From: an uncultured Bacteroidota bacterium
GTDB taxonomy: Bacteria > Bacteroidota > Bacteroidia > Flavobacteriales > Flavobacteriaceae
Reading direction: 5' to 3'
DNA: 64,000 bases
NCBI GenBank assembly: GCA_902512065.1
Contig: CABXHU010000002.1
Span: 1 to 64,000 of the forward strand
How positions within the stretch are numbered: position 1 is the first letter of the stretch; each line of letters opens with the position of its first letter. The notes beneath the pieces were generated by a model. The model was not told the origin of the DNA, made no database searches, and saw only the letters and a program-made list of their open reading frames with translations. This document shows, in pieces, positions 28,319-40,746 of the stretch. A program made the translations under genes and the position numbers.

Positions 28319-28651
28319 TCATTTGTATTTATTGTAAATAGCTGAAAAGATAAATAATACTCCAGGCAATGCCAATGCGTCTATCATAGAAAAATCATAT
28401 GGGCTGTCGTCTATTAAATTAAAGGCTCCTATACTTATTACTGTAATAACTCCGCCAATAAGCTCCCGCCTCCAAGCAATTATTTGCCCTAAACACACCC
28501 CGATTGGAAAAAACAAAAATAATGCCCCCTCTTTCATCGAAAGAACTTTGGTAAATTCATCTCCAGTCAAATGAGCAATGAAAAAGAACACTATAATTCC
28601 TATTGAGATTGCACTAGAAATTCTGGCAATCAAATAAAGAACTTTTTTCAT
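28319..28651 (-). CDS. Small integral membrane protein, unknown function
   Basis: 110 residues with about four hydrophobic segments (roughly 5-28, 40-62, 66-82, 90-106). I recognise no characterised family; a similarity to small DUF7670-like membrane proteins is possible but uncertain. It is divergent from the Cys/Met-rich outer-membrane gene, with the Fnr-like site 28697-28710 between them. On the minus strand a TATATTAA element at 28674-28667 lies at the spacing seen for the other Fnr-like promoters, so it may be induced at low oxygen. Confidence 0.6.
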   Translation of the reverse strand: MKKVLYLIARISSAISIGIIVFFFIAHLTGDEFTKVLSMKEGALFLFFPIGVCLGQIIAWRRELIGGVITVISIGAFNLIDDSPYDFSMIDALALPGVLFIFSAIYNKYK

Positions 28652-28696: not shown

Positions 28697-28710
28697 ATGA
28701 TAATTATCAT
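28697..28710. promoter_or_regulatory. Fnr-like palindrome 1 (ATGATAATTATCAT)
   Basis: A perfect 14-base palindrome, ATGAT-AATT-ATCAT, lies in the gap between two divergent genes. Its half-sites and 4-base spacer match the Fnr box except for the outermost base (A instead of T). The nearest promoter-like element at class II spacing is on the minus side (28674-28667). On the plus side the -7-like AATTTTTG (28725-28732) is too close for class II activation. Confidence 0.65.
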
Positions 28711-28767: not shown

Positions 28768-29832
28768 ATGAAAAATTTGACACTTATCCTGGCTCTTTTC
28801 TTTCTTAATATTTCATTTTCACAAGACAATTTTTGTTGTACTTCACCTGATGATCCTGAATGTTGCTCACTAAATGATAATAAAGATTGTTGTGCAGAGC
28901 GACCTGATGGTCATGGTCCTATAAATTTAATGGGAGATCATATGCATAGTAAAGGAGATTTAATGTTTTCGTATCATTATATGGGAATGTTTATGGAAGG
29001 TGCTCTAACAGGTTCTGAGGAAATTTCAACAGAAACAATCTTTGAAAATTATATAAATTCTCCTGAAAAAATGAAAATGGATATGCACATTTTGAGTCTT
29101 ATGTTTGCACCAAGTGATGAGATCACTCTAATGTTAATGGCAAATTATACTTCGAAATCAATGGATATATTTACAAACACTCTTGAGGTGTTTAATACGA
29201 ATTCAAGTGGTTTTGGTGATATTTCTGTAATGGGATTGTATAAAATCATGTATGAACCAAAGCAAGCTGCACATTTTAATGTGGGATTCTCAATTCCAAC
29301 AGGAAGTATTGATCAAAGAGACAATACACCAATGATGAATAATACTTTGCTGGGCTATTCTATGCAACTTGGTAGTGGAACCTTTGATGTAATAATTGGA
29401 GGAACATATTTTAATCAATTAGAAAATTTTTCCTGGGGAGCGCAAACACTATATAAGTCTAGAATTGGTAAGAACTCCAAACATTATACTCTTGGAGATA
29501 GAGCAGAAGCTACAATATGGAGCGCCTTTAAGGTTTCTAAAAAGTTAAGTCTTTCAACTAGTATAAACTATTATAAACTGAAGAATTTAGAAGGTTATGA
29601 TTCAGATTTAAATTCAATGATAAACCCATTAGTCAACTCAATAAATTCTGGAAGAAGCCAAATAGATTTTGGTATTGGCAGTAACTATATTATTCCTTCA
29701 ACAAGTTTAAATAAACTTAGACTATCTATTCAGGCTAGTTATCCTTTATATCAAAATGTTAATGGCATTCAAATGAAAAACACATGGAGCGGAGTTTTTG
29801 GCTTAAAATATTCATTTAAAAATACTCTGTAA
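28768..29832 (+). CDS. Cys/Met/His-rich outer-membrane beta-barrel protein, possibly copper-related
   Basis: 354 residues. After the signal peptide (ends near ISFSQ) comes a cluster of paired cysteines, C-C at 23-24, 31-32 and 41-42, then a Met/His-rich stretch (MGDHMHSKGDLMFSYHYMGMFME). The rest has alternating beta-strands like the MetA-pathway/transporter-type outer-membrane barrels, ending in 'FGLKYSF'. Related barrels often accompany copper or heavy-metal genes. N2O reductase needs twelve copper ions per dimer, so a role in copper supply is a reasonable inference, not shown. It is preceded by the Fnr-like site at 28697. Confidence 0.65.
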   Translation: MKNLTLILALFFLNISFSQDNFCCTSPDDPECCSLNDNKDCCAERPDGHGPINLMGDHMHSKGDLMFSYHYMGMFMEGALTGSEEISTETIFENYINSPEKMKMDMHILSLMFAPSDEITLMLMANYTSKSMDIFTNTLEVFNTNSSGFGDISVMGLYKIMYEPKQAAHFNVGFSIPTGSIDQRDNTPMMNNTLLGYSMQLGSGTFDVIIGGTYFNQLENFSWGAQTLYKSRIGKNSKHYTLGDRAEATIWSAFKVSKKLSLSTSINYYKLKNLEGYDSDLNSMINPLVNSINSGRSQIDFGIGSNYIIPSTSLNKLRLSIQASYPLYQNVNGIQMKNTWSGVFGLKYSFKNTL

Positions 29833-29854: not shown

Positions 29855-29868
29855 ATGATAATTGTCAT
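29855..29868. promoter_or_regulatory. Fnr-like palindrome 2 (ATGATAATTGTCAT), nos operon
   Basis: ATGAT-AATT-GTCAT lies upstream of the fasciclin-cytochrome-nosZ operon. Its centre is about 41 bases before the transcription start predicted from the -7 element 29891-29898, the position for class II activation by Crp/Fnr proteins. Confidence 0.75.
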
Positions 29869-29925: not shown

Positions 29926-30516
29926 ATGAAAAAATCTAAGATATCATTCACAGCTCTATTGTCAATTTTATTTGTTGCAGCATTAGCAATTATTTATATT
30001 GATTTTACTCAGGCCACTAGAGAATTTGTCACTAATTCAGATTCTGTAACTAATTTAAATACTCCTCTAGGGCAAGCAAGTGTTGTAGATAATATTTCAG
30101 ATCCAAATATTTTACAAGTAGCAATGAGTTCAAAAGACCACACAACTCTTGTAACAGCTATTCAGGCTGCTCAAATTGAACATGTCTTAGTTAATGCAGG
30201 GCCATTAACTGTTTTTGCCCCAACAAATGAAGCCTTTGATTTCTTACCTAAAGGTACAATTGAAAATTTATTAGAGCCTGAAAACAAACAAGAACTAACT
30301 ACAATTTTAACACAACATGCTGCTCCTGGAACATTTGATATTGAAAAACTAAGGAAGGAAGCTGCAAAAAAAAGAAAAATATATATGGCAACTGGGTCTT
30401 ATTTAGAAATAACAACAAAAGGAGAACATGTTTTTGTTAATGGCTGTAAAGTTATTGCTTCTATACCAACAGTAAATGGCATTATAAATGTAATTGATAA
30501 AGTAATTATTCTATAA
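29926..30516 (+). CDS. Fasciclin (FAS1) domain protein, first gene of the nos operon
   Basis: 196 residues. An N-terminal hydrophobic anchor or signal (about 8-27) is followed by one FAS1 domain (about 60-196) with the H1 region 'LVTAIQAAQIEHVLVNAGPLTVFAPTNEAF' split as usual and the H2 region 'VNGCKVIASIPTVNGIINVIDKVI'. FAS1 domains mediate protein-protein or surface contacts; here the protein faces the periplasm. It begins the nos transcript and lies 12 bases before the cytochrome gene, so it may assemble or dock the electron-transfer partners of NosZ (inference). Confidence 0.88.
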   Translation: MKKSKISFTALLSILFVAALAIIYIDFTQATREFVTNSDSVTNLNTPLGQASVVDNISDPNILQVAMSSKDHTTLVTAIQAAQIEHVLVNAGPLTVFAPTNEAFDFLPKGTIENLLEPENKQELTTILTQHAAPGTFDIEKLRKEAAKKRKIYMATGSYLEITTKGEHVFVNGCKVIASIPTVNGIINVIDKVIIL

Positions 30517-30528
30517 ATATTTTTTAAA

Positions 30529-30993
30529 ATGAGAAAAAAAACATTAGTACAATTTATATTATTGGGAATCTTAACATACTCATGTAGTAGTGATGCATCC
30601 TTAAACAAATCTAACTTTGAAACAAAAGCACTTTCTACAAAAACAATAAATAATCCAATGCAAGATAAAGGGATTGGCCCCATTACATCAGTAAAAATAA
30701 ATACTGAAATTAATAAAGATCTGGCTATTCATGGAAAAACTTTATTTGAAACAAATTGTATAGCCTGTCATAAGCTAGATAAACGATTTATTGGCCCCGC
30801 AATCACAGGTATTACTAAAAGAAGATCTCCAGAATGGATAATGAATATGGTTTTGAATCCTGAGCAAATGGTTAAAGAAAACCAATTGGCAAAACAATTA
30901 TTAATGGAATACATGTCGCCAATGGCAAATCAGAATCTTACAGAAAATGAAGCACGCGCTGTGCTTGAGTATTTTATTGAAATTGATAACTAA
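30529..30993 (+). CDS. Monohaem cytochrome c lipoprotein (nos cluster)
   Basis: 154 residues. A lipoprotein signal ends at Cys19 (ILTYSC). The haem c site C77-I-A-C80-H81 is followed by a Met-containing segment ('MEYMSPMAN', axial ligand probably Met129 or Met132). Small class I cytochromes next to clade II nosZ are thought to deliver electrons to N2O reductase, and this one lies only 15 bases upstream of nosZ. It would sit on the periplasmic face, tethered by lipid. Confidence 0.9.
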   Translation: MRKKTLVQFILLGILTYSCSSDASLNKSNFETKALSTKTINNPMQDKGIGPITSVKINTEINKDLAIHGKTLFETNCIACHKLDKRFIGPAITGITKRRSPEWIMNMVLNPEQMVKENQLAKQLLMEYMSPMANQNLTENEARAVLEYFIEIDN

Positions 30994-31008: not shown

Positions 31009-33012
31009 ATGATAGATTTTAAAAACACAATTAAAGATATTAAAGATTTTATTTATATCTGGTTTGGGGAATTAATTTTTGTTGCTGGGTTAATCTTATT
31101 ATTATTCTTTTTTCTTTCATGTGAAGAAACATCTAATCAAGGAGCTTTAAAGAGTGATATAGCTGAAAAAGTATATGTACCACCAGGAGAACACGATGAA
31201 TTTTATGCATTAATTTCTGGTGGCTTTAGCGGTCAATTATCAGTTTATGGACTACCATCTGGAAGGCTTTTTAAAGTAATTCCTGTTTTTTCTCAAGATC
31301 CAGAAAAGGCATACGGATATAATGAAGAAACCAAGCCAATGCTTAATACTTCATATGGCTTTGTTCCCTGGGGAGATGCACACCATCCTGATATTTCACA
31401 AACTAATGGCGAACTAGACGGTAGATGGGTGTTTATAAATGAGAATAATACACCAAGAGTTGCAAGAATTGATTTAACAACTTTTGAAACCGTTGAAATT
31501 ATTGAATTACCTAATTCTGCAGGGAATCATAGCTCTCCTTATGTTACGGATAACACGGAATATGTGGTTGCAGGAACGCGTTTTGGAGTGCCTGTTCCAC
31601 AACGCGATATGCCAATAGATGAGTATAAAGGAAATTTTAAAGGAGCTCTTTCCTTTATAAAAGTTGATCAAGAAACCGGAGGCATGAATTTAGAGTTTCA
31701 AATAATGATGCCAGGATTTGATTATGATAAAGCTCATCCAGGGAGAGGGAAATCTCATGGATGGATGTTTTTTACTACATATAATGTAGAAGAAAGCAAT
31801 ACATTACTTGAAGTTAATGCCTCTCAAAGAGATAAAGATTTTATAGCTGCTGTAAACTGGAAAAAAGCAGAGGAATATATTAAATCTGGAAAGTATACAA
31901 CCATGAGCACGAAATATGCTCATAATGTATATGATGAACATACTCAATCTGCGACAAGTACAATGAAAAAGGAGGTTAAAATATTAGATCCTAAGGAATG
32001 TCCTGGACTTGTTTATTTTATTCCTATGCCGAAATCTCCACATGGATGTGATGTAGACCCCTCTGGAGAATATATAGTGGGAAGCGGAAAATTGTCAGCG
32101 AATGTCACTGTGCATTCGTTTTCAAAAATGATCAAAGCAATTAGTGAAAAAAAGTTTGATGGAGAGGCTTATGGAATTCCAATAATTAATTTTGAAGATG
32201 CACTTGCAGGAGTCGTTAAGCAGCCTGGATTGGGACCTCTTCATACAGAATTTGACAATAAAGGGAATGGATATACAACATTTTTTATTTCTTCAGAGGT
32301 TGTTAAATGGAAATTAGGAACATGGGAAATTTTAGACAGAAAACCAACTTATTATTCTGTAGGACATTTAATGATCCCTGGAGGAAATTCCCAAAGTCCC
32401 TTTGGTAAGTATCTTCTTGCATTGAATAAAATTACAAAAGACAGGTATCTTCCAACTGGTCCTGAGGTATGTCACTCTGCACAGTTATATGATATATCTG
32501 GCAGTAAAATGGAATTGTTATTAGATTTTCCTACCATAGGAGAGCCTCATTATGCTGCTGGAATTCCAGCAAGTTTAATCAAAGAAAAATCTAAAAAAAT
32601 ATACAAATTAGAAGAGAACCATCACCCTTATGTTACAAGAAGTCCAAAGGATGCAAAAGTTGTTCGAAATGGAAATGAAGTTCATGTATATATGACCATG
32701 ATAAGATCTCATTTTGCGCCTGATAATATAGAAGGGGTTAAAGAAGGTGACAAGGTCTATTTTCATGTAACAAATCTTGAGCAGGATTATGATGTTCCTC
32801 ACGGGGTCGCTATGATTGGTGCAAACACTTCAGAATTACTAATTATGCCAGGGCAAACAGAAACCTTTATTTGGGATGCTAATCAAGAGGGGGTATGGCC
32901 ATTTTATTGTACAGATTTTTGTTCAGCCCTTCATCAAGAAATGCAAGGATATGTTAGGGTGTCACCTAAAAGTAGTAACATAAAATTAAATTGGTCTTTA
33001 GACGGAGAATAA
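31009..33012 (+). CDS. nosZ: Nitrous oxide reductase, Sec-type (clade II)
   Basis: 667 residues. It reduces N2O to N2 in the periplasm. The seven CuZ histidines can all be placed: His125 and His126 (GDAHHPD), His174 (GNHSS), His345 (SPHGC), His412 (PLHTEF), His453 (VGHLM) and His513 (GEPHYA). The CuA domain has His598, Cys634, Cys638, His642 and Met645 (CTDFCSALHQEM). The N-terminus has a hydrophobic segment at 21-37 and Cys38, but no twin-arginine motif, so export is Sec-dependent, as in clade II; the n-region is unusually long at about 20 residues. A lipobox-like FLSC suggests lipid anchoring. Confidence 0.97.
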   Translation: MIDFKNTIKDIKDFIYIWFGELIFVAGLILLLFFFLSCEETSNQGALKSDIAEKVYVPPGEHDEFYALISGGFSGQLSVYGLPSGRLFKVIPVFSQDPEKAYGYNEETKPMLNTSYGFVPWGDAHHPDISQTNGELDGRWVFINENNTPRVARIDLTTFETVEIIELPNSAGNHSSPYVTDNTEYVVAGTRFGVPVPQRDMPIDEYKGNFKGALSFIKVDQETGGMNLEFQIMMPGFDYDKAHPGRGKSHGWMFFTTYNVEESNTLLEVNASQRDKDFIAAVNWKKAEEYIKSGKYTTMSTKYAHNVYDEHTQSATSTMKKEVKILDPKECPGLVYFIPMPKSPHGCDVDPSGEYIVGSGKLSANVTVHSFSKMIKAISEKKFDGEAYGIPIINFEDALAGVVKQPGLGPLHTEFDNKGNGYTTFFISSEVVKWKLGTWEILDRKPTYYSVGHLMIPGGNSQSPFGKYLLALNKITKDRYLPTGPEVCHSAQLYDISGSKMELLLDFPTIGEPHYAAGIPASLIKEKSKKIYKLEENHHPYVTRSPKDAKVVRNGNEVHVYMTMIRSHFAPDNIEGVKEGDKVYFHVTNLEQDYDVPHGVAMIGANTSELLIMPGQTETFIWDANQEGVWPFYCTDFCSALHQEMQGYVRVSPKSSNIKLNWSLDGE

Positions 33013-33029
33013 TAATAAACAAATAAGTT

Positions 33030-33533
33030 ATGATTGGAATTAACGAAAAATTTCCAGAATTCAAGCTTTTAGGAGTAGATGGAAATGAAATATTAGAAAT
33101 AAGTAGTCAAGATTATAAACAATGGAAGGTAATTTATTTCTACCCAAAGGATTTCACTTTTATTTGTCCTACTGAAATTACAAGCATGGACAAGTTAAAT
33201 AGTGAGGCTAAAGTTTTCGGAATAAGTGGAGACAATGAATATTGCAAATTAGCCTGGAAAAAAGAGAATGAAGGATTGCGTTTTATTAAGCATCCACTCT
33301 TGGCTGATTCTGGTTTAAAATTATCAAGAGAAATTGGAGTAGTAGATCAAGAAAATGAAGTTTGTTTACGAGCTACTTTTATTATTGATGAAAATAATAT
33401 TATAAGACATGTTTCTTGTAATGATTTAGATACAGGACGAAGTGTTGATGAAATATTACGCACACTACAGGCCTTGAAGACAGGCGGGCTTACTGGCTGT
33501 CAATGGGCTCCTGGAGATAAATTTGTGGGATAA
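33030..33533 (+). CDS. AhpC/TSA-type peroxiredoxin in the nos operon
   Basis: 167 residues. The peroxidatic Cys46 lies in 'KDFTFICPTEI'. Further cysteines are 72, 112, 130 and 157; Cys157 in 'GGLTGCQWAPGD' matches the C-terminal position of the resolving cysteine in mycobacterial-type AhpC. There is no signal peptide, so it acts in the cytoplasm. It reduces hydrogen peroxide and organic peroxides, perhaps also peroxynitrite. The gene lies only 17 bases after nosZ in the same direction, so it is probably part of the nos transcript. Confidence 0.9.
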   Translation: MIGINEKFPEFKLLGVDGNEILEISSQDYKQWKVIYFYPKDFTFICPTEITSMDKLNSEAKVFGISGDNEYCKLAWKKENEGLRFIKHPLLADSGLKLSREIGVVDQENEVCLRATFIIDENNIIRHVSCNDLDTGRSVDEILRTLQALKTGGLTGCQWAPGDKFVG

Positions 33534-33655: not shown

Positions 33656-34714
33656 ATGGAAAAATCAAAATTATATATGAGCTTAGGAATGATAATGTTT
33701 TTTGTAATATATTTTGTTCCAATATGGACTGTCACATTAGAAGCTCCACAATATCCTGAACCTATTGGTCTGAATATTTGGATTAATAAAATTAGCGATA
33801 TGAATCCAAATGATTTAAAGAATATAAACCTAATGAATCATTATATAGGAATGGATGAAATCCCAGAACATATTCCTGAATTTGATTTTCTTCCATTAAT
33901 CTTAGGAAGTATGATTATTCTTGGGTTTATATTTATTTATTTCAATAATAAAAAACTATATGCTTTTTGGTTTATTCTAATGACTGTTTTAGGTATGCTA
34001 GGGATCTATGATTTCTGGCTCTGGGGACATGAGTATGGTCATAATTTAGATCCTAATGCTGCAATAAAATTTGTAGATGAATTTGGGAATCCTTTAGCCT
34101 ACCAACCCCCAGTAATTGGCAAAAAAACTATTTTAAATTTTGTAGCAATCTCCAAACCAAACATCGGAGCTATTCTAATTATAATTGGAATGCTTATGGT
34201 TTCTCTTTCAGTTTATGTAAAAAAAGGAGAAAAAATTTTCTATAATCAGAAGATAAAAATAAAAAATAAAATTATTGCTGCAAGATTATCCTACACGCTA
34301 TTAATACTACCATTAATGTATTCTTGCAGTGTTAATGCACAAAAGGTAAATTATGGCGAGGACCTTTGTTATAATTGTAAGATGCACATTGTCGATACTC
34401 AGCATGCTGCTCAAATTATAACCAAAAAGGGGAAAAAATTTCTTTTTGATTCTATTGAATGCATGCTCAATGAAATGTCAAATATGGATTTGAGTAAAAA
34501 CAAATTGTATCTAGCAAACACATATTATGGAAAAGAAACATTTTTTGATGTAAATAATCTAACCTTTTTAATATCTAAAAAAATTCCAAGCCCAATGGGG
34601 GGTAATTTAACCGCATTTAAAAATCTTGATGATGCTCATAATATAATGAAGGATATGGGTGGTGAAAATTATAATTGGAAAGAAATAAAAAAGAAATATA
34701 ATATTATACAATAA
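33656..34714 (+). CDS. nosL: Fusion of a multi-pass membrane protein with NosL
   Basis: 352 residues. Residues 1-190 have four hydrophobic segments (about 8-24, 78-96, 102-120, 168-187) with motifs 'WTVTLEAPQYPEP' and 'LWGHEYGHNLDP', matching a membrane protein often found as a separate gene in Bacteroidota nos clusters. A fifth segment (about 208-223) ends in a lipobox-like LMYSC. Residues 229-352 are NosL, with the copper-binding Cys238-x2-Cys241-x-Met243 and 'FDSIECM'. NosL delivers Cu(I) to apo-NosZ. With N-terminus inside, five passes put NosL in the periplasm, as required. Confidence 0.88.
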   Translation: MEKSKLYMSLGMIMFFVIYFVPIWTVTLEAPQYPEPIGLNIWINKISDMNPNDLKNINLMNHYIGMDEIPEHIPEFDFLPLILGSMIILGFIFIYFNNKKLYAFWFILMTVLGMLGIYDFWLWGHEYGHNLDPNAAIKFVDEFGNPLAYQPPVIGKKTILNFVAISKPNIGAILIIIGMLMVSLSVYVKKGEKIFYNQKIKIKNKIIAARLSYTLLILPLMYSCSVNAQKVNYGEDLCYNCKMHIVDTQHAAQIITKKGKKFLFDSIECMLNEMSNMDLSKNKLYLANTYYGKETFFDVNNLTFLISKKIPSPMGGNLTAFKNLDDAHNIMKDMGGENYNWKEIKKKYNIIQ

Positions 34715-34725
34715 TAACATTTGAA

Positions 34726-35970
34726 ATGAAATCATTACTAACCACTATTATTTGTTTATTCTCTATCAATATTATATACTCATCCGTAATAATTGTCTGT
34801 AACAAGTGTGATATATCTGATATATCAATAGCCATTGATAAAGCCAAAAACCACGATACTATAATTATCAAAAAAGGAACTTATTATGAATTTGATATAG
34901 AAATTAATAAGCCCATAAAAATTATTGGAGAAAATTCAATAATTGATGTTGAGTTTAATGGAGGAGGATTTAATATAAAATCTGACAGTGTATATTTATC
35001 TAATTTAAAAATCAATAATATTAAAAGATCATATACGAAGGATATTGCTGGTATTGTGGCTTATAAATCAGACCATTTTGTAATAGAAAATATTGAATTT
35101 AATAATCCCTTTTTTGCAATATTCTTGCAAAAATCTAGGAATGGTATAATACGGAATAATATAATAAAAGGAGTCAATAATGATGTATTAAATTCTGGAA
35201 ATGGGATACATCTATGGGATTCAAAAAATATAGAAATTGAAAACAACAAAATAATTAATATGCGGGATGGTATATATCTAGAGTTTGTTAGTGCTGCTAG
35301 CATAAATAATAATATAAGTGAGAAAAATTTGCGATATGGACTTCATTTTATGTTTTCAAACGAAAACAAATATTCTAATAATATTTTTATAAATAATGCG
35401 GCTGGTGTAGCAGTAATGTTTTCTAAAAATATTATAATTCACAGTAATAGATTTGAGAATAATTGGGGCTCTTCTTCTTACGGCCTTTTATTAAAAGAAA
35501 TTTATGATGCTAAAATTCAAAACAATTATTTTTATCAAAATACCATTGGAATAGCTGTTGAGGGATCAAACAGGATCAACTATAATCATAATATTTTTAA
35601 ACAAAACGGTTGGGCTACAAAAATTTCTGGGGGGTGTTATGAAAATATTTTTACAGATAACGATTATCTAAATAATACCTTTGATCTTTCATATAAAGGA
35701 CGAGAAAATGATAATGTATTCTCGGGAAATTATTGGAGCAATTATGTTGGTTATGATTTAAATCATGACGGTATAGGTGATGTCGCATTTATGCCAATTA
35801 AATTATTTTCTTATATAGTAAATTCAGTTCCTGAAGCAATAACACTTCATAGAAGTTTATTTGTTGAATTAATAAACTTTTCAGAAAAAGTAGCTCCAAT
35901 ATTTACACCCAAATACATAATGGATAAGGAGCCAAAAATAAAACCAATAAATTATGTTATCAATTACTAA
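34726..35970 (+). CDS. nosD: Periplasmic NosD maturation factor
   Basis: 414 residues with a signal peptide (ends near IIYSS). The body is a right-handed parallel beta-helix of CASH/PbH1 repeats rich in Asn and Ile ('GIHLWDSKNIEIENNKI', 'GIYLEFVSAASINNN'), as in NosD. The family's C-terminal '.NYWSNYVGYDLNHDGIGD' block is present. NosD works with the NosFY ABC transporter in assembling the CuZ site, probably by handling its sulfur. Its 3' end overlaps nosF by 17 bases. Confidence 0.93.
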   Translation: MKSLLTTIICLFSINIIYSSVIIVCNKCDISDISIAIDKAKNHDTIIIKKGTYYEFDIEINKPIKIIGENSIIDVEFNGGGFNIKSDSVYLSNLKINNIKRSYTKDIAGIVAYKSDHFVIENIEFNNPFFAIFLQKSRNGIIRNNIIKGVNNDVLNSGNGIHLWDSKNIEIENNKIINMRDGIYLEFVSAASINNNISEKNLRYGLHFMFSNENKYSNNIFINNAAGVAVMFSKNIIIHSNRFENNWGSSSYGLLLKEIYDAKIQNNYFYQNTIGIAVEGSNRINYNHNIFKQNGWATKISGGCYENIFTDNDYLNNTFDLSYKGRENDNVFSGNYWSNYVGYDLNHDGIGDVAFMPIKLFSYIVNSVPEAITLHRSLFVELINFSEKVAPIFTPKYIMDKEPKIKPINYVINY

Positions 35971-36649
35971 TCTTAATAAGAGTTTTGGAAAATTAGAAGT
36001 TCTTCAAGGAATTAATATAAATATTGTTAAGCAAGGCATATTTGCAATATTAGGCCCAAATGGTTCAGGGAAAACAACATTAATTAAGACAATATTAGGC
36101 TTGGTTATTCCTGATTTTGGCTCGATAACTATAAATGATAAGGAAATCATTAACAGATGGGCTTATAGATCAGAGATTTCATATTTACCTCAAATTGCGA
36201 ACTTTCCCAGTAATTTAACGGTTATAGAAATAATTAATCTGATTAAAAATATACGGCCAAACACAAAATTGGACAAGGACCTTATTGATTTATTTAATAT
36301 TAAAGAGTCAATGAATAAAAAACTAGTAGATCTTTCTGGCGGAACAAAACAAAAAGTAAACATTGTTCTCACCTTTATGTCTGACTCACCAATTATTATT
36401 TTAGATGAACCTACAGCAGGATTAGATCCAATATCTTTAATAAAGTTAAAAGATCTGCTTATAAGAGAGAAAGAAAAAGGAAAAACTATAATAGTTACTT
36501 CTCACATAATGAGTTTTATTGAAGAGATATCTCATGATATTTTCTTTCTTCTAGATGGAAAAATTTTCTTCAATGGAACAATAGAAGATTTGAAAGTAAG
36601 AACAAATGAAAGCACTTTAGAACGTGCCATTGCCAATCTATTAAAATAA
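35954..36649 (+). CDS. nosF: NosF ABC transporter ATP-binding protein
   Basis: 231 residues. Walker A GPNGSGKTT is at 34-42, the ABC signature LSGGTKQKV near 130, and Walker B 'IIILDEPTAGLDP' follows, with the H-loop in 'TSHIMSF'. It supplies ATP energy for the NosDFY complex that matures the copper-sulfur centre of NosZ. It overlaps nosD by 17 bases and precedes nosY by 5, so translation is tightly coupled. Nothing is missing. Confidence 0.95.
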   Translation: MLSITNLNKSFGKLEVLQGININIVKQGIFAILGPNGSGKTTLIKTILGLVIPDFGSITINDKEIINRWAYRSEISYLPQIANFPSNLTVIEIINLIKNIRPNTKLDKDLIDLFNIKESMNKKLVDLSGGTKQKVNIVLTFMSDSPIIILDEPTAGLDPISLIKLKDLLIREKEKGKTIIVTSHIMSFIEEISHDIFFLLDGKIFFNGTIEDLKVRTNESTLERAIANLLK

Positions 36650-36654
36650 TAGAA

Positions 36655-37437
36655 ATGTATAAAATATTAAGATATAGTTTTTATGATTTAATTAGAAGTA
36701 AATGGTGTTATATATATTTTGGTTTTTACTTTATATTAAGTTCAAGTCTGCTGTTTTTAAATAATAGTTTAGCAAAATCAATTATTACTTTAATGAATGT
36801 CATAGTTGTGCTGACTCCTCTTATAGGATCTATTTTTGGAGCTATGTACTACTATAGTTCTAAAGAATTTGTTGAATTATTATTAGCTCAACCCATAAAA
36901 AGAAATACAGTTTTTTTAGGACAATATATAGGGCTTTCATTATCTCTATCAGTAAGCTTATTGTTAGGGCTTTCTATACCTTTTATTGTTTATGGAATGC
37001 TAATTTCTCCAGAAATAACAAATTTTATTTCAGTAATAATCATTGGAGTATTGTTGACATTTATTTTTACGGCTATTTCATACTATATAGCTCTTTCAAA
37101 TGATGATAATATAAAAGGGATTGGCATAGCCATTCTTTTTTGGTTATTTATGGCAGTAATTTATGATGGCATTTTTCTTATATGCTTATTGACATTAAAA
37201 GAATATCCTCTAGAAAATTTCTCATTATTTTCAATCTTGATAAATCCAATAGATTTATCAAGGATCTTAATCATTCTTAAATTAGATATTTCTGCACTTT
37301 TGGGGTATACTGGAGCTGTTTTTCAAGGATTTTTTGGTAGAAAAATGGGCATATTAATTATTGGCTCTGTATTAATGTTATGGACAATTATACCAATAAT
37401 TATGATTAATATTAAAAGCAAAAGAAAAGATTTTTAA
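36655..37437 (+). CDS. nosY: NosY ABC transporter permease
   Basis: 260 residues with six hydrophobic segments and the family pattern 'YYSSKEFVELLLAQPIKRNTVFLGQ' after the second one. NosY forms the membrane part of NosDFY. It is the last gene of the nos transcript; the next gene has its own Fnr-like promoter 120 bases on. Confidence 0.93.
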   Translation: MYKILRYSFYDLIRSKWCYIYFGFYFILSSSLLFLNNSLAKSIITLMNVIVVLTPLIGSIFGAMYYYSSKEFVELLLAQPIKRNTVFLGQYIGLSLSLSVSLLLGLSIPFIVYGMLISPEITNFISVIIIGVLLTFIFTAISYYIALSNDDNIKGIGIAILFWLFMAVIYDGIFLICLLTLKEYPLENFSLFSILINPIDLSRILIILKLDISALLGYTGAVFQGFFGRKMGILIIGSVLMLWTIIPIIMINIKSKRKDF

Positions 37438-37489: not shown

Positions 37490-37503
37490 ATGATATACGT
37501 CAT
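37490..37503. promoter_or_regulatory. Fnr-like palindrome 3 (ATGATATACGTCAT)
   Basis: ATGAT-ATAC-GTCAT stands upstream of the CcoP-like cytochrome gene. A TTTG (37530-37533, within AACCTTTG) begins 27 bases after the site, exactly as in the nos promoter, and places transcription start near 37537-37540. Confidence 0.72.
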
Positions 37504-37558: not shown

Positions 37559-38263
37559 ATGAAGGTTTTATTTCCATCATGGATTAGAGTTTCTCTTCTA
37601 TTTATAATTCTAATTGGATTATTTGAATTACTATTTGGATCAGGAACAAAAATAGTTTTTTTAGAAAAACCTATTATTCTCTTATTTTTAATTTTATTCT
37701 TTTTACTTATAATAGCTTTTGAATTAGTCTTAGGATGCATTAGGGCTATTCTTGACCAATCAGGAATCAAAGGAGTTTCTTCTAATCATAAAAAAATAAA
37801 AGCTTATTTAGACCCTAAATGGGCATATTCTTCAATAATAGGCATTATTTGTTTTGGATCATTTTTTGGTGGAGATTATTTTTTTGATTCTAACTATTCC
37901 TTGAAAAAAATTATAGAAAATCATCAAAAAAATAATTTTTCGAATATTGAAATTTTAACAAGTTTAAATGATCTTGAAAATGGTAGAAATATATATGAGA
38001 CAAACTGTTCTGTATGCCATGCTAATGATGGAGGCGGAGGTATTGGTCCCAATTTTACGGACAGTTATTGGATACAAGGCGGTGGGATAAAAAATATCGT
38101 GAAGACAATAACTTTGGGCGGAAGAGAGGGTAAAGGGATGATCGCATGGAATGAGATTTTAACCCCATTAGAAATTAGCCAGGTAGCAAGCTATATAGTT
38201 CGTTTTGAAGGTAATAACTCAGTTAAGCCTAAAGCTGCTGAAGGTGCCTTGTGGACTAATTAG
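37559..38263 (+). CDS. CcoP-like membrane-bound cytochrome c
   Basis: 234 residues. Two hydrophobic segments (about 8-26 and 38-60) and a third near 91-105 precede a periplasmic haem c domain with C150-S-V-C153-H154 and axial Met194 (GKGMIAW). The 'NC.VCH..DG.GGIGPNFTD.YWI' and 'RGMIAW'-type motifs resemble CcoP of cbb3 oxidases from Bacteroidota. No ccoN, ccoO, ccoG or ccoS gene is in the window, so this is an orphan copy. It may carry electrons to NosZ or to an oxidase encoded elsewhere. The Fnr-like site upstream suggests induction at low oxygen. Confidence 0.85.
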   Translation: MKVLFPSWIRVSLLFIILIGLFELLFGSGTKIVFLEKPIILLFLILFFLLIIAFELVLGCIRAILDQSGIKGVSSNHKKIKAYLDPKWAYSSIIGIICFGSFFGGDYFFDSNYSLKKIIENHQKNNFSNIEILTSLNDLENGRNIYETNCSVCHANDGGGGIGPNFTDSYWIQGGGIKNIVKTITLGGREGKGMIAWNEILTPLEISQVASYIVRFEGNNSVKPKAAEGALWTN

Positions 38264-38307: not shown

Positions 38308-38321
38308 ATGATAAATGTCAT
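38308..38321. promoter_or_regulatory. Fnr-like palindrome 4 (ATGATAAATGTCAT)
   Basis: ATGAT-AAAT-GTCAT precedes the small membrane protein and the lactamase-fold/rhodanese gene. A TTTG (38348-38351, within TTCTTTTG) begins 27 bases after the site, again the same spacing as at the nos promoter. Confidence 0.72.
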
Positions 38322-38370: not shown

Positions 38371-38634
38371 ATGAAACTAAGCTCTTATCAAAGAAAAGAC
38401 CAATATTTGTTTAATATAATAGCAGGTTTTGTTATTTCAGTAATAGTTGCTGGATGTTCAACATATTATATAGCTCAGCATCTAGATTATTTTGTTCTTA
38501 GACTTATGTTAACTGCTATTCCTATTGCTATTTTATTGGTTTGCATATTATCTGTTCAACCCCCCAAAACAATATACTATGCTACAATTCTATCACTTAC
38601 AGCAAGTTTTTTATCAATACTAATTAATTTTTAA
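38371..38634 (+). CDS. Small three-pass membrane protein, unknown function
   Basis: 87 residues from the ATG at 38371 (an in-frame TTG lies two codons upstream). Three hydrophobic segments at about 14-33, 40-58 and 63-84. I do not recognise a family. Its stop codon (38632-38634) is separated by one base from the ATG of the metallo-beta-lactamase/rhodanese gene, so the two are co-transcribed behind the Fnr-like site 38308-38321. A membrane partner or sulfur-compound carrier for its neighbour is possible, but this is only inferred from position. Confidence 0.6.
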   Translation: MKLSSYQRKDQYLFNIIAGFVISVIVAGCSTYYIAQHLDYFVLRLMLTAIPIAILLVCILSVQPPKTIYYATILSLTASFLSILINF

Positions 38635-38635
38635 A

Positions 38636-40057
38636 ATGAATATAAAACAGCTGTATACTCCCTGTCTTTCTGAGGCTACTTATTATATTAGCTCAAATGG
38701 AGAGGCTGCAATTATTGATCCCCTTAGAGAGACTAAGCCTTATATAAATCTTTTACAATCTGACAATACTAATCTCAAATATATATTTCTTACTCATTTT
38801 CATGCAGACTTTGTTTCAGGTCATGTTGATTTGGCAAAAGAAACTGGAGCAAAAATAATTTATGGCCCTACTGCTATGGCAAATTTTGATTTTCAACAAG
38901 GTGTAGATGGAGAAGTTTTTAAGCTTGGAAAACTAGAAATTAAATTAATTCATACTCCTGGGCATACACTTGAATCAATATGCCTTTTGCTTTTTGATGA
39001 GTCTATGAAGGAGCATTGTTTGTTTTCAGGAGATACAGTTTTTATTGGTGATGTAGGAAGACCAGATCTTGCTGCTACAGATGAATTAACTAAGGAAGAT
39101 TTAGCAAAGCTCTTGTATCGCTCCATACATACTAAAATACTTCCTCTCCCTGATAACATAATTGTCTATCCAAATCATGGAAAGGGTTCCGTATGTGGAA
39201 AACACATGAGTGAAAAAACCTTTGATACGTTATTAGGTCAAAAGCAAACAAACTATGCGTTAAACCCGAAATTAACTGAAGAAGATTTTGTAGAAAGAGT
39301 TTTGGAAGGTCTTCTTGCTCCACCACAATATTTCCCTAAGAATGTGCAAATGAATAAACAAATAAATAAAAATATAAATGAGATAATTTCAAAAGGCTTA
39401 ACCCCATTAACCATTACCCAATTTCTTAGATTTAGCAGCTGTGAAAATATATTGCTATTAGATGTTCGTTCCGCAAAAGAATTTGCTGATGGACATATAC
39501 CAGGATCAATTTTTATAGGTTTAGAAGGTCCTTTTGCCCCACTAGTTGGAGCACTAATTCCTGATTTGAATCAAAAAATAGTACTAGTTTCTCCGAAAGC
39601 CAGAGAACTAGAAGCTATAACACGGTTATCAAGAGTTGGTTATGATAATGTAATTGGATATATAGAAGATGCTTCAAAATATTGGGAAAATAAGGGATGG
39701 AAATTAGAAAAGTTAAATACAATTAAAGCAACCTCAAAAATTTTATTACAAAATCCTTATTTTATCGATGTTAGAGAAAAAACAAAGTATGAAGTAAGCC
39801 ATGCAAAACACTCTGAAAATATTCCAATCAAGTTTATAAGAAATAATAATTTAAATCCTAATATAAGATACTACGTGTATTGTAACAAGGGATATCTTTC
39901 AACAATTGCAATTTCAATATTTAAAAAACTTGGAATTAATAATCTAGTAAATGTAACTGGTGGATTTGAAGAAATTAAAAAAAGCTTTGTTCCAGTTTAT
40001 AAAAAAGACTGCTCTTGTACTCAATGCAACTGTAAAAAACTTGCAGAACTAAATTAA
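38636..40057 (+). CDS. Metallo-beta-lactamase fold protein with two rhodanese domains (persulfide dioxygenase-like)
   Basis: 473 residues. The N-terminal hydrolase-fold domain has the metal motif THFHADFVSGH (His54, His56, Asp58, His63), 'HTPGHTLESI', 'SGDTVFIGDVGRPDL' and 'YPNHGKGS', which match persulfide dioxygenase (ETHE1/Blh-like). The first rhodanese domain (about 265-355) has no cysteine at the expected place (LVSPKARE). The second (about 370-450) has Cys416 in CNKGYLS. The tail carries a Cys cluster (CSCTQCNC). It may oxidise or move sulfane sulfur; being in the low-oxygen island it could protect against sulfide, which poisons copper enzymes. Confidence 0.9.
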   Translation: MNIKQLYTPCLSEATYYISSNGEAAIIDPLRETKPYINLLQSDNTNLKYIFLTHFHADFVSGHVDLAKETGAKIIYGPTAMANFDFQQGVDGEVFKLGKLEIKLIHTPGHTLESICLLLFDESMKEHCLFSGDTVFIGDVGRPDLAATDELTKEDLAKLLYRSIHTKILPLPDNIIVYPNHGKGSVCGKHMSEKTFDTLLGQKQTNYALNPKLTEEDFVERVLEGLLAPPQYFPKNVQMNKQINKNINEIISKGLTPLTITQFLRFSSCENILLLDVRSAKEFADGHIPGSIFIGLEGPFAPLVGALIPDLNQKIVLVSPKARELEAITRLSRVGYDNVIGYIEDASKYWENKGWKLEKLNTIKATSKILLQNPYFIDVREKTKYEVSHAKHSENIPIKFIRNNNLNPNIRYYVYCNKGYLSTIAISIFKKLGINNLVNVTGGFEEIKKSFVPVYKKDCSCTQCNCKKLAELN

Positions 40058-40062
40058 AACGC

Positions 40063-40746
40063 TTAAATATTAACAATTTTTTCTAGTTTATTTAACTCTA
40101 GAATTTTAATTTTTTTTCCTTTAATCGAAATGTACTTTTTATTTTTTAATTCAGATAAAATACGAATTGCAGATTCTGTAGCTGTACCAACAATATTTGC
40201 ATAATCCTCTCTAGATAATTCGATCATTAACATTCCGTCTTTGTCATTTCCAAAAGAATTATTAATATGTAATAAAAGTTCAATTATACGTTTTTTTACA
40301 GATTTTTGAGCAATATCTACAATTGTATTATTTGAGGTTTTTAGTTCATCTGCCATTGAGTGTAATAATTCCTTAGCAAAATATCCATTTTTCATTATGT
40401 CTGAATTTATTTCTTTTTGTGGAATAAAACACACCTGAGTATCAGTTATAGCTGTAGCACTTAAATTAGTTCTTTCTTGAGCAAATAAGGAGCGCTGTCC
40501 CATTAAGTCTCCCTTTATGATAAGCTTTACAATATGACCTTTCCCATTTACTCCTAATTTTGATAATTTCACTACTCCATCTCGTACACAATAAATGCCA
40601 TTTAATTTTTCTCCTTCTTCAAATATTTTTTTTCCTTTATGAAAAAGCTGTGTTTCTTTAAATTTGCTGATTCTAGCCAATTCTTCTGGATTCAATACAT
40701 TTAATGCATTGCATTTTCTTACTATACAAAATTCACATTTACTCAT
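40063..40746 (-). CDS. Crp/Fnr-family transcriptional regulator with Fnr-type cysteines
   Basis: 227 residues. An N-terminal cluster Cys4-x2-Cys7-x4-Cys12 and Cys106 (in TQVCFIP) match the four Fe-S ligands of Fnr (in E. coli three near the N-terminus plus Cys122 in 'MVCEIP'). The cyclic-nucleotide-like sensor domain spans about 25-115, a dimer helix 118-145 and a winged helix-turn-helix about 170-220. The recognition helix (GTATESAIRIL) keeps the Glu and Arg that read TGA in Fnr, but has Ile where Fnr has Ser212. It is the best candidate to bind the four palindromes in this island. The gene lies convergent with the rhodanese gene. Confidence 0.9.
   Translation of the reverse strand: MSKCEFCIVRKCNALNVLNPEELARISKFKETQLFHKGKKIFEEGEKLNGIYCVRDGVVKLSKLGVNGKGHIVKLIIKGDLMGQRSLFAQERTNLSATAITDTQVCFIPQKEINSDIMKNGYFAKELLHSMADELKTSNNTIVDIAQKSVKKRIIELLLHINNSFGNDKDGMLMIELSREDYANIVGTATESAIRILSELKNKKYISIKGKKIKILELNKLEKIVNI

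Follow-up and report, generated by a model that had tools for sequence, protein, structure and literature searches.

A predicted FNR-like regulator and ATGA-type palindromes in the clade II nos cluster of a marine flavobacterium

The window analysed here, a 64,000-nucleotide stretch of DNA from a marine Flavobacteriaceae MAG (1.27 Mb, 29% G+C, 77% complete), encodes on its minus strand (40063-40746) a Crp/Fnr-type protein of 227 amino acids, the sole FNR-like regulator that we found. We propose, with a probability of roughly 0.7, that at low oxygen this protein would carry an Fe-S cluster on C4, C7 and C106 together with C53 (or, in the genus of the window, possibly C12), and that the cluster-bearing form would dimerise and bind (A/C)TGAY-N4-RTCA(T/G) palindromes centred at −41.5. 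From there, it would exert class II activation on the nos gene runs (cytochromes, NosZ, NosL, NosDFY and accessory genes) and on the Fe-S repair gene ytfE/RIC, until oxygen or NO damages the cluster, thereby turning the regulator off or resetting it. We infer the cluster, the dimerisation, the binding, the direction of regulation and the signal from the comparisons described below. An earlier note on this DNA had pointed to an Fnr-type regulator and to palindromes with an altered outer base. On the comparative evidence that finding holds for an FNR-like nos regulator with an altered site preference, whereas its list of cysteine ligands needs revision and its explanation of the altered base by the recognition helix is a guess.

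The regulator

The protein combines a cNMP-binding-type beta roll (Pfam cNMP_binding PF00027, 1.3e-17, 64 bits for a cut-off of 27.5) with a Crp-type helix-turn-helix (Pfam HTH_Crp_2 PF13545, 2.6e-14, 53.4 bits for a cut-off of 27), and its structure matches reach a Z of 23.9, which places it in the Crp/Fnr superfamily. It is the only HTH_Crp_2 match in the 77%-complete assembly, in which a sequence search likewise found no other relative. The NCBIfam Fnr model NF008365 scored it at 78 bits, below the curated cut-off of 228. The candidate Fe-S ligands are C4, C7, C53 and C106, plus the genus-specific C12; structure prediction gave low confidence for the N-terminal part (pLDDT 59). The recognition helix reads T190-E191-S192-A193-I194-R195. 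The protein is likely an FNR-like Fe-S sensor, which would work like FNR but, by the defining features tested, is not a canonical FNR.

The nos cluster and its palindromes

The neighbouring genes form a Sec-dependent (clade II) nos cluster, with a Sec-type NosZ and nosL, D, F and Y; clade II NosZ occurs in 90 of the 199 sampled genomes of the family. The central run, on the plus strand, encodes a fasciclin-domain protein (29926-30516); a cytochrome c lipoprotein (30529-30993), whose relatives come first in the nos operons of other genera; NosZ, the Sec-dependent nitrous-oxide reductase (31009-33012; TIGR04246, 937.8 bits for a cut-off of 625); an AhpC/TSA peroxiredoxin (33030-33533); a NosL-domain protein (33656-34714); NosD (34726-35970); an ABC ATPase in the NosF position (35954-36649); and an ABC-2 membrane protein in the NosY position (36655-37437).

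The palindromes to which the earlier note had drawn attention are real and exceed what chance would give: four occur in the window and all of them are intergenic. The first, ATGATAATTATCAT (28697-28710), lies 57 nt before the plus-strand gene of an outer-membrane-type protein with a weak Phenol_MetA_deg match (28768-29832), and 45 nt before the minus-strand gene of a DUF7670 membrane protein (28319-28651), its likely divergent target. The second, ATGATAATTGTCAT (29855-29868), stands 57 nt before the fasciclin-cytochrome c-nosZ run, and the third, ATGATATACGTCAT (37490-37503), 55 nt before the gene of a membrane-anchored cytochrome c (37559-38263, plus strand). The fourth, ATGATAAATGTCAT (38308-38321), precedes by 49 nt an 87-amino-acid membrane ORF with no family match (38371-38634, plus strand) and the gene of a protein with a metallo-beta-lactamase fold and a rhodanese domain (38636-40057, plus strand), which ends in the cysteine cluster DCSCTQCNCKK. 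Through this last gene, downstream of the 38308 site, sulfur handling may be connected with the regulon.

In the whole 1.27-Mb genome, ATGAYN4RTCAT has 15 perfect matches, as compared to 10 for the reversed-pattern control. Ten of the 15 fall inside coding sequences and five stand just upstream of start codons, namely the four of the nos cluster (28697, 29855, 37490 and 38308) and one located 48 nt before ytfE/RIC on contig C1 (TIGR03652, 244 bits for a cut-off of 204.7). The latter site clips the end of one 84-amino-acid ORF call overlapping ytfE in antisense, which is unlikely to be a real gene. In the genus-mate, five intergenic sites are present in this cluster. The TTGAT-N4-ATCAA pattern occurs in the window about as often as expected (13 times, for an expectation of 12.8), and the upstream gap of the regulator gene itself holds no recognisable site, unlike that of most orthologs.

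In relatives, the regulator is placed beside the genes of the cbb3 oxidase. A CcoNO query, which gave positive controls in two relatives, found cbb3 CcoNO in neither MAG of the genus of the window; this absence, which may reflect a real loss or incompleteness, seems to leave the nos genes as the principal target here. The one CcoNO match in the window genome (5e-9, 22%) was rejected, as it falls on the same locus of the contig labelled C4 as the COX1 match.

The site across the family

Scanning genome contigs with an alignment retrieved 80 loci, and the single-sequence scan none. In the neighbourhoods of 38 orthologs belonging to other genera, the intergenic XTGAYN4RTCAX' palindromes (n=95) have the outer pairs AA (54), AC (36), AG (2), AT (2), GT (1) and TT (0), whereas those inside coding sequences have mixed outer pairs. 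The sites precede ccoI, ccoS-ccoNO, the regulator gene and uspA genes (names given by sequence resemblance). In 79 named loci, which partly share genomes with the 38 neighbourhoods, the 161 intergenic sites display the half-site AAAYATGAYAWW, with A as the outer base in 84% of the cases, C in 10% and T in 2%, and with the outer pairs AA (117), AC (33) and TT (3). Since the outer T is found in about 2% of the sites, TTGAT-N4-ATCAA is not the site of this family, and the whole Bacteroidota branch appears to read an ATGA-type site in place of the textbook TTGA.

The earlier note had regarded the regulator of the window as the reader of the palindromes, a proposal that the following lines of comparative evidence strongly support. 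First, it is the sole Crp/Fnr protein of the assembly. Second, the site is family-wide; for instance, the nos cytochrome c gene is preceded by it in 18 of the 20 other genera with an ortholog. Third, a scoring matrix built from the 79 loci of other genera, from which the window and the same-genus sequence were excluded, ranks the four nos sites 1 to 4 in the window, with 27.6 bits for 28697, 20.9 for 37490, 15.4 for 38308 and 14.4 for 29855, the next score being 9.1; in simulated windows, any site reached the score of the fourth in three cases out of 50.

Flavobacteria are abundant marine bacteria, many of which have a clade II nosZ, so that knowledge of the switch and its site makes the N2O-consumption regulon predictable from sequence. 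As the site is of the ATGA type, flavobacterial regulons of this kind would escape a search based on TTGAT FNR boxes. Our literature search found no description of the flavobacterial motif or of the ligand set discussed below, though papers elsewhere may exist. The same site also occurs, at six loci, 48-51 nt before a gene product starting with ..KYNV(A/P)GPRYTSYPT, which looks like a HemN-type coproporphyrinogen oxidase.

Promoter geometry

FNR and CRP act as class II activators from position −41.5. In the 79 named loci, the spacing between site and start codon is most often 50-59 nt. In 50 oriented sites, the last base of TAnnTTTG lies exactly 37 nt from the centre, and every other offset is represented at most eight times. 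The flavobacterial −7 box TAnnTTTG has been placed at −12 to −5 (PMC9723704), so that the 37-nt lock to this box puts the site centre at −41.5, as in class II Crp/Fnr activators when the box position is taken from that work. This geometry supports activation as the predicted direction of regulation. In the window, TTTG occurs at +37 of three of the four forward sites (background 0.008 per base), i.e., at 29855, where the last base of TATTTTTG is exactly 37 nt from the centre of the palindrome, at 37490 and at 38308; site 28697 has no TTTG at +37.

The cysteine ligands

The earlier note had equated C4, C7, C12 and C106 with the four Fe-S ligands of FNR. In the alignment with E. coli FNR (fnr from NC_000913.3), C4, C7 and C106 indeed match Cys20, Cys23 and Cys122, but C12 lies one residue short of Cys29 (CX2CX4C here, CX2CX5C in FNR), the column of which is occupied by N13, so that three of the four ligands (Cys20, 23, 29 and 122) align. 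C12 is found only in the genus of the window (window protein and genus-mate) and is absent from 42 of the 42 aligned relatives outside it, which have F (37), L (4) or Y (1). C53, which had gone unnoticed, is kept in 44 of 44 aligned relatives and is as invariant among them as C4, C7 and C106; the same set of four is also seen in other families of the order and across the phylum.

A census of 118 full-length proteins comprises 73 with the CxxC only, together with C53 and C106; 27 with the CxxC, a third N-terminal cysteine and C106, and without C53; 10, including that of the window, with the CxxC, the third N-terminal cysteine, C53 and C106; seven without the N-terminal pair, C53 and C106; and one other. 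Thus, C53 accompanies the CxxC-only arrangement in 73 of 73 cases, and the third N-terminal cysteine occurs in 27 of the 27 proteins that have C106 and not C53; from these counts, no protein relies on the CxxC and C106 alone, and C4, C7, C53 and C106 are retained or lost jointly. The 118 proteins are kin and their counts are not independent, the Fisher p value of the C53 rule going from 8e-10 to 0.017 and 0.24 when near relatives are thinned at 70%, 50% and 40% identity, respectively.

The simplest reading of these data is a four-ligand site, the fourth ligand of which would be either the third N-terminal cysteine or C53, with C53 probably replacing the former. In the predicted model, C53 and C106 are located in the middle of strands 50-56 and 103-109, respectively. 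In the jelly roll of cNMP domains, the matching strands are adjacent and antiparallel, and full strand pairing would set C53 opposite C106. The activating-region residues 72-73 and 118-120 of E. coli FNR lie close together, which agrees with this register. We give about even odds to the wider proposal of a Bacteroidota-wide FNR-like branch that would hold a [4Fe-4S] cluster on the CxxC and the beta-roll cysteines C53 and C106, the genus of the window being intermediate, with both possible fourth ligands. A relocated fourth ligand, if true, would mean that the cluster-binding site of FNR can be rebuilt in evolution.

A cluster bound much like that of E. coli FNR, by C4, C7, C12 and C106, with C53 only structural, seems unlikely. 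C12 is indeed present in both the window protein and its genus-mate, and a flavobacterial paralog family has the CX2CX4C arrangement without C53, but the close relatives outside the genus all lack C12 and yet keep C4, C7 and C106, and C53 is missing from none of the CxxC-only proteins. This paralog family is a second FNR-like one in flavobacteria and carries the helix GTTEEQVIR.

Equally doubtful is the possibility that there is no cluster, and that the conserved cysteines form a thiol-disulfide switch or a site for another metal, for direct redox sensing. Thiol switches commonly contain a CxxC, and the mid-strand positions of C53 and C106 on expected neighbour strands would allow a cross-strand disulfide. 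However, the candidate cysteines always number four or more, the proteins that have a third N-terminal cysteine instead look like FNR, and the targets (nos, cbb3 oxidase and Fe-S repair) coincide with those of FNR proteins that carry an Fe-S cluster. All four cysteines have disappeared together from one relative that shares the recognition helix; this protein may be a derivative without Fe-S that recognises the same sites.

Genomes without a close ortholog

Genomes lacking a close ortholog of the regulator were expected to lack the sites as well. This expectation was ruled out by the occurrence of nos sites in 15 of 19 such genomes, which implies that another type of regulator can read the same site. 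These genomes encode proteins of about 350 amino acids with a response-regulator-receiver-like start and a Crp-type helix-turn-helix end carrying ATESxIR (REC-CRP), and their sharing of the helix probably explains why the sites are there. The coexistence of REC-CRP proteins with unchanged nos sites in these flavobacteria represents a possible sensor swap with a conserved regulon. It is improbable that the palindromes of the window are read mainly by a different regulator, for example a REC-CRP response regulator sharing this helix: the ortholog-less relatives do have ATESxIR proteins alongside the same nos sites, but the assembly has no second HTH_Crp_2 protein, though one could be encoded in the missing 23% of the MAG.

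The recognition helix and the outer base

Returning to the regulator of the window as the proposed reader, its helix is as the earlier note had described it: the alignment confirms the Glu (E191 for E209 of FNR), the Arg (R195 for R213) and the Ile in place of Ser212 (I194). E191 and R195 are invariant in the relatives, I194 occurs in 44 of 44 and T190 in 42 of 44. T190, which the note had not mentioned, is also a change from FNR, at the equivalent of V208. The outer base has been found to track the position of CRP R180, i.e., FNR V208 (PMC1274295), which is T190 in our protein. Since T190 and I194 both differ from FNR and hardly vary in the family, the comparison cannot separate them, and the proposal that Ile at the Ser212 position accounts for the outer A is a possible reading that fits the alignments.

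Two other types of Ile-bearing regulators, REC-CRP and the GTTEEQVIR paralog, also go with outer-A sites. The paralog, which has the Ile but a Glu at position 190, is flanked in 13 of 17 loci by a strongly conserved palindrome, TAAGTAtnnATACTTA, which is probably its operator. The outer base of TAAGTAtnnATACTTA in the same register is A, but several other residues of the paralog differ and the regions are A+T-rich, so that these data lean only slightly towards a role of the Ile in the choice of the outer base.

Comparison with known systems

The regulator resembles the FNR of E. coli and Aliivibrio fischeri in fold (holo-FNR 5e44, Z 19.9, 23% identity), in its N-terminal CxxC, in its beta-roll equivalent of Cys122 and in its equivalents of E209 and R213, as well as in its predicted class II position −41.5 and its predicted anaerobic respiration targets. 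It differs from them by the lack of a Cys29 equivalent and the presence of the invariant extra Cys53, by having Ile at the Ser212 position and Thr at that of Val208, and by its predicted site, ATGAY instead of TTGAT. The best match in both sequence (1.2e-29) and structure (Z 23.9) is the Crp/Fnr protein 2gau of Porphyromonas gingivalis, the recognition helix of which also has Ile-Arg; the sequence match begins at residue 16, leaving the N-terminal cysteine segment unmatched.

In Proteobacteria, nos and cbb3 operons are activated by the Crp/Fnr proteins FixK2, NnrR and DNR, of which DNR and NnrR are devoid of the FNR cysteines. The sites of these three regulators are of the TTG type (PMC1274295). 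The Wolinella-type Nss and other regulators of clade II nos genes place N2O reduction under Crp/Fnr control, and the consensus used for them is TTGA-N6-TCAA (PMC11539149).
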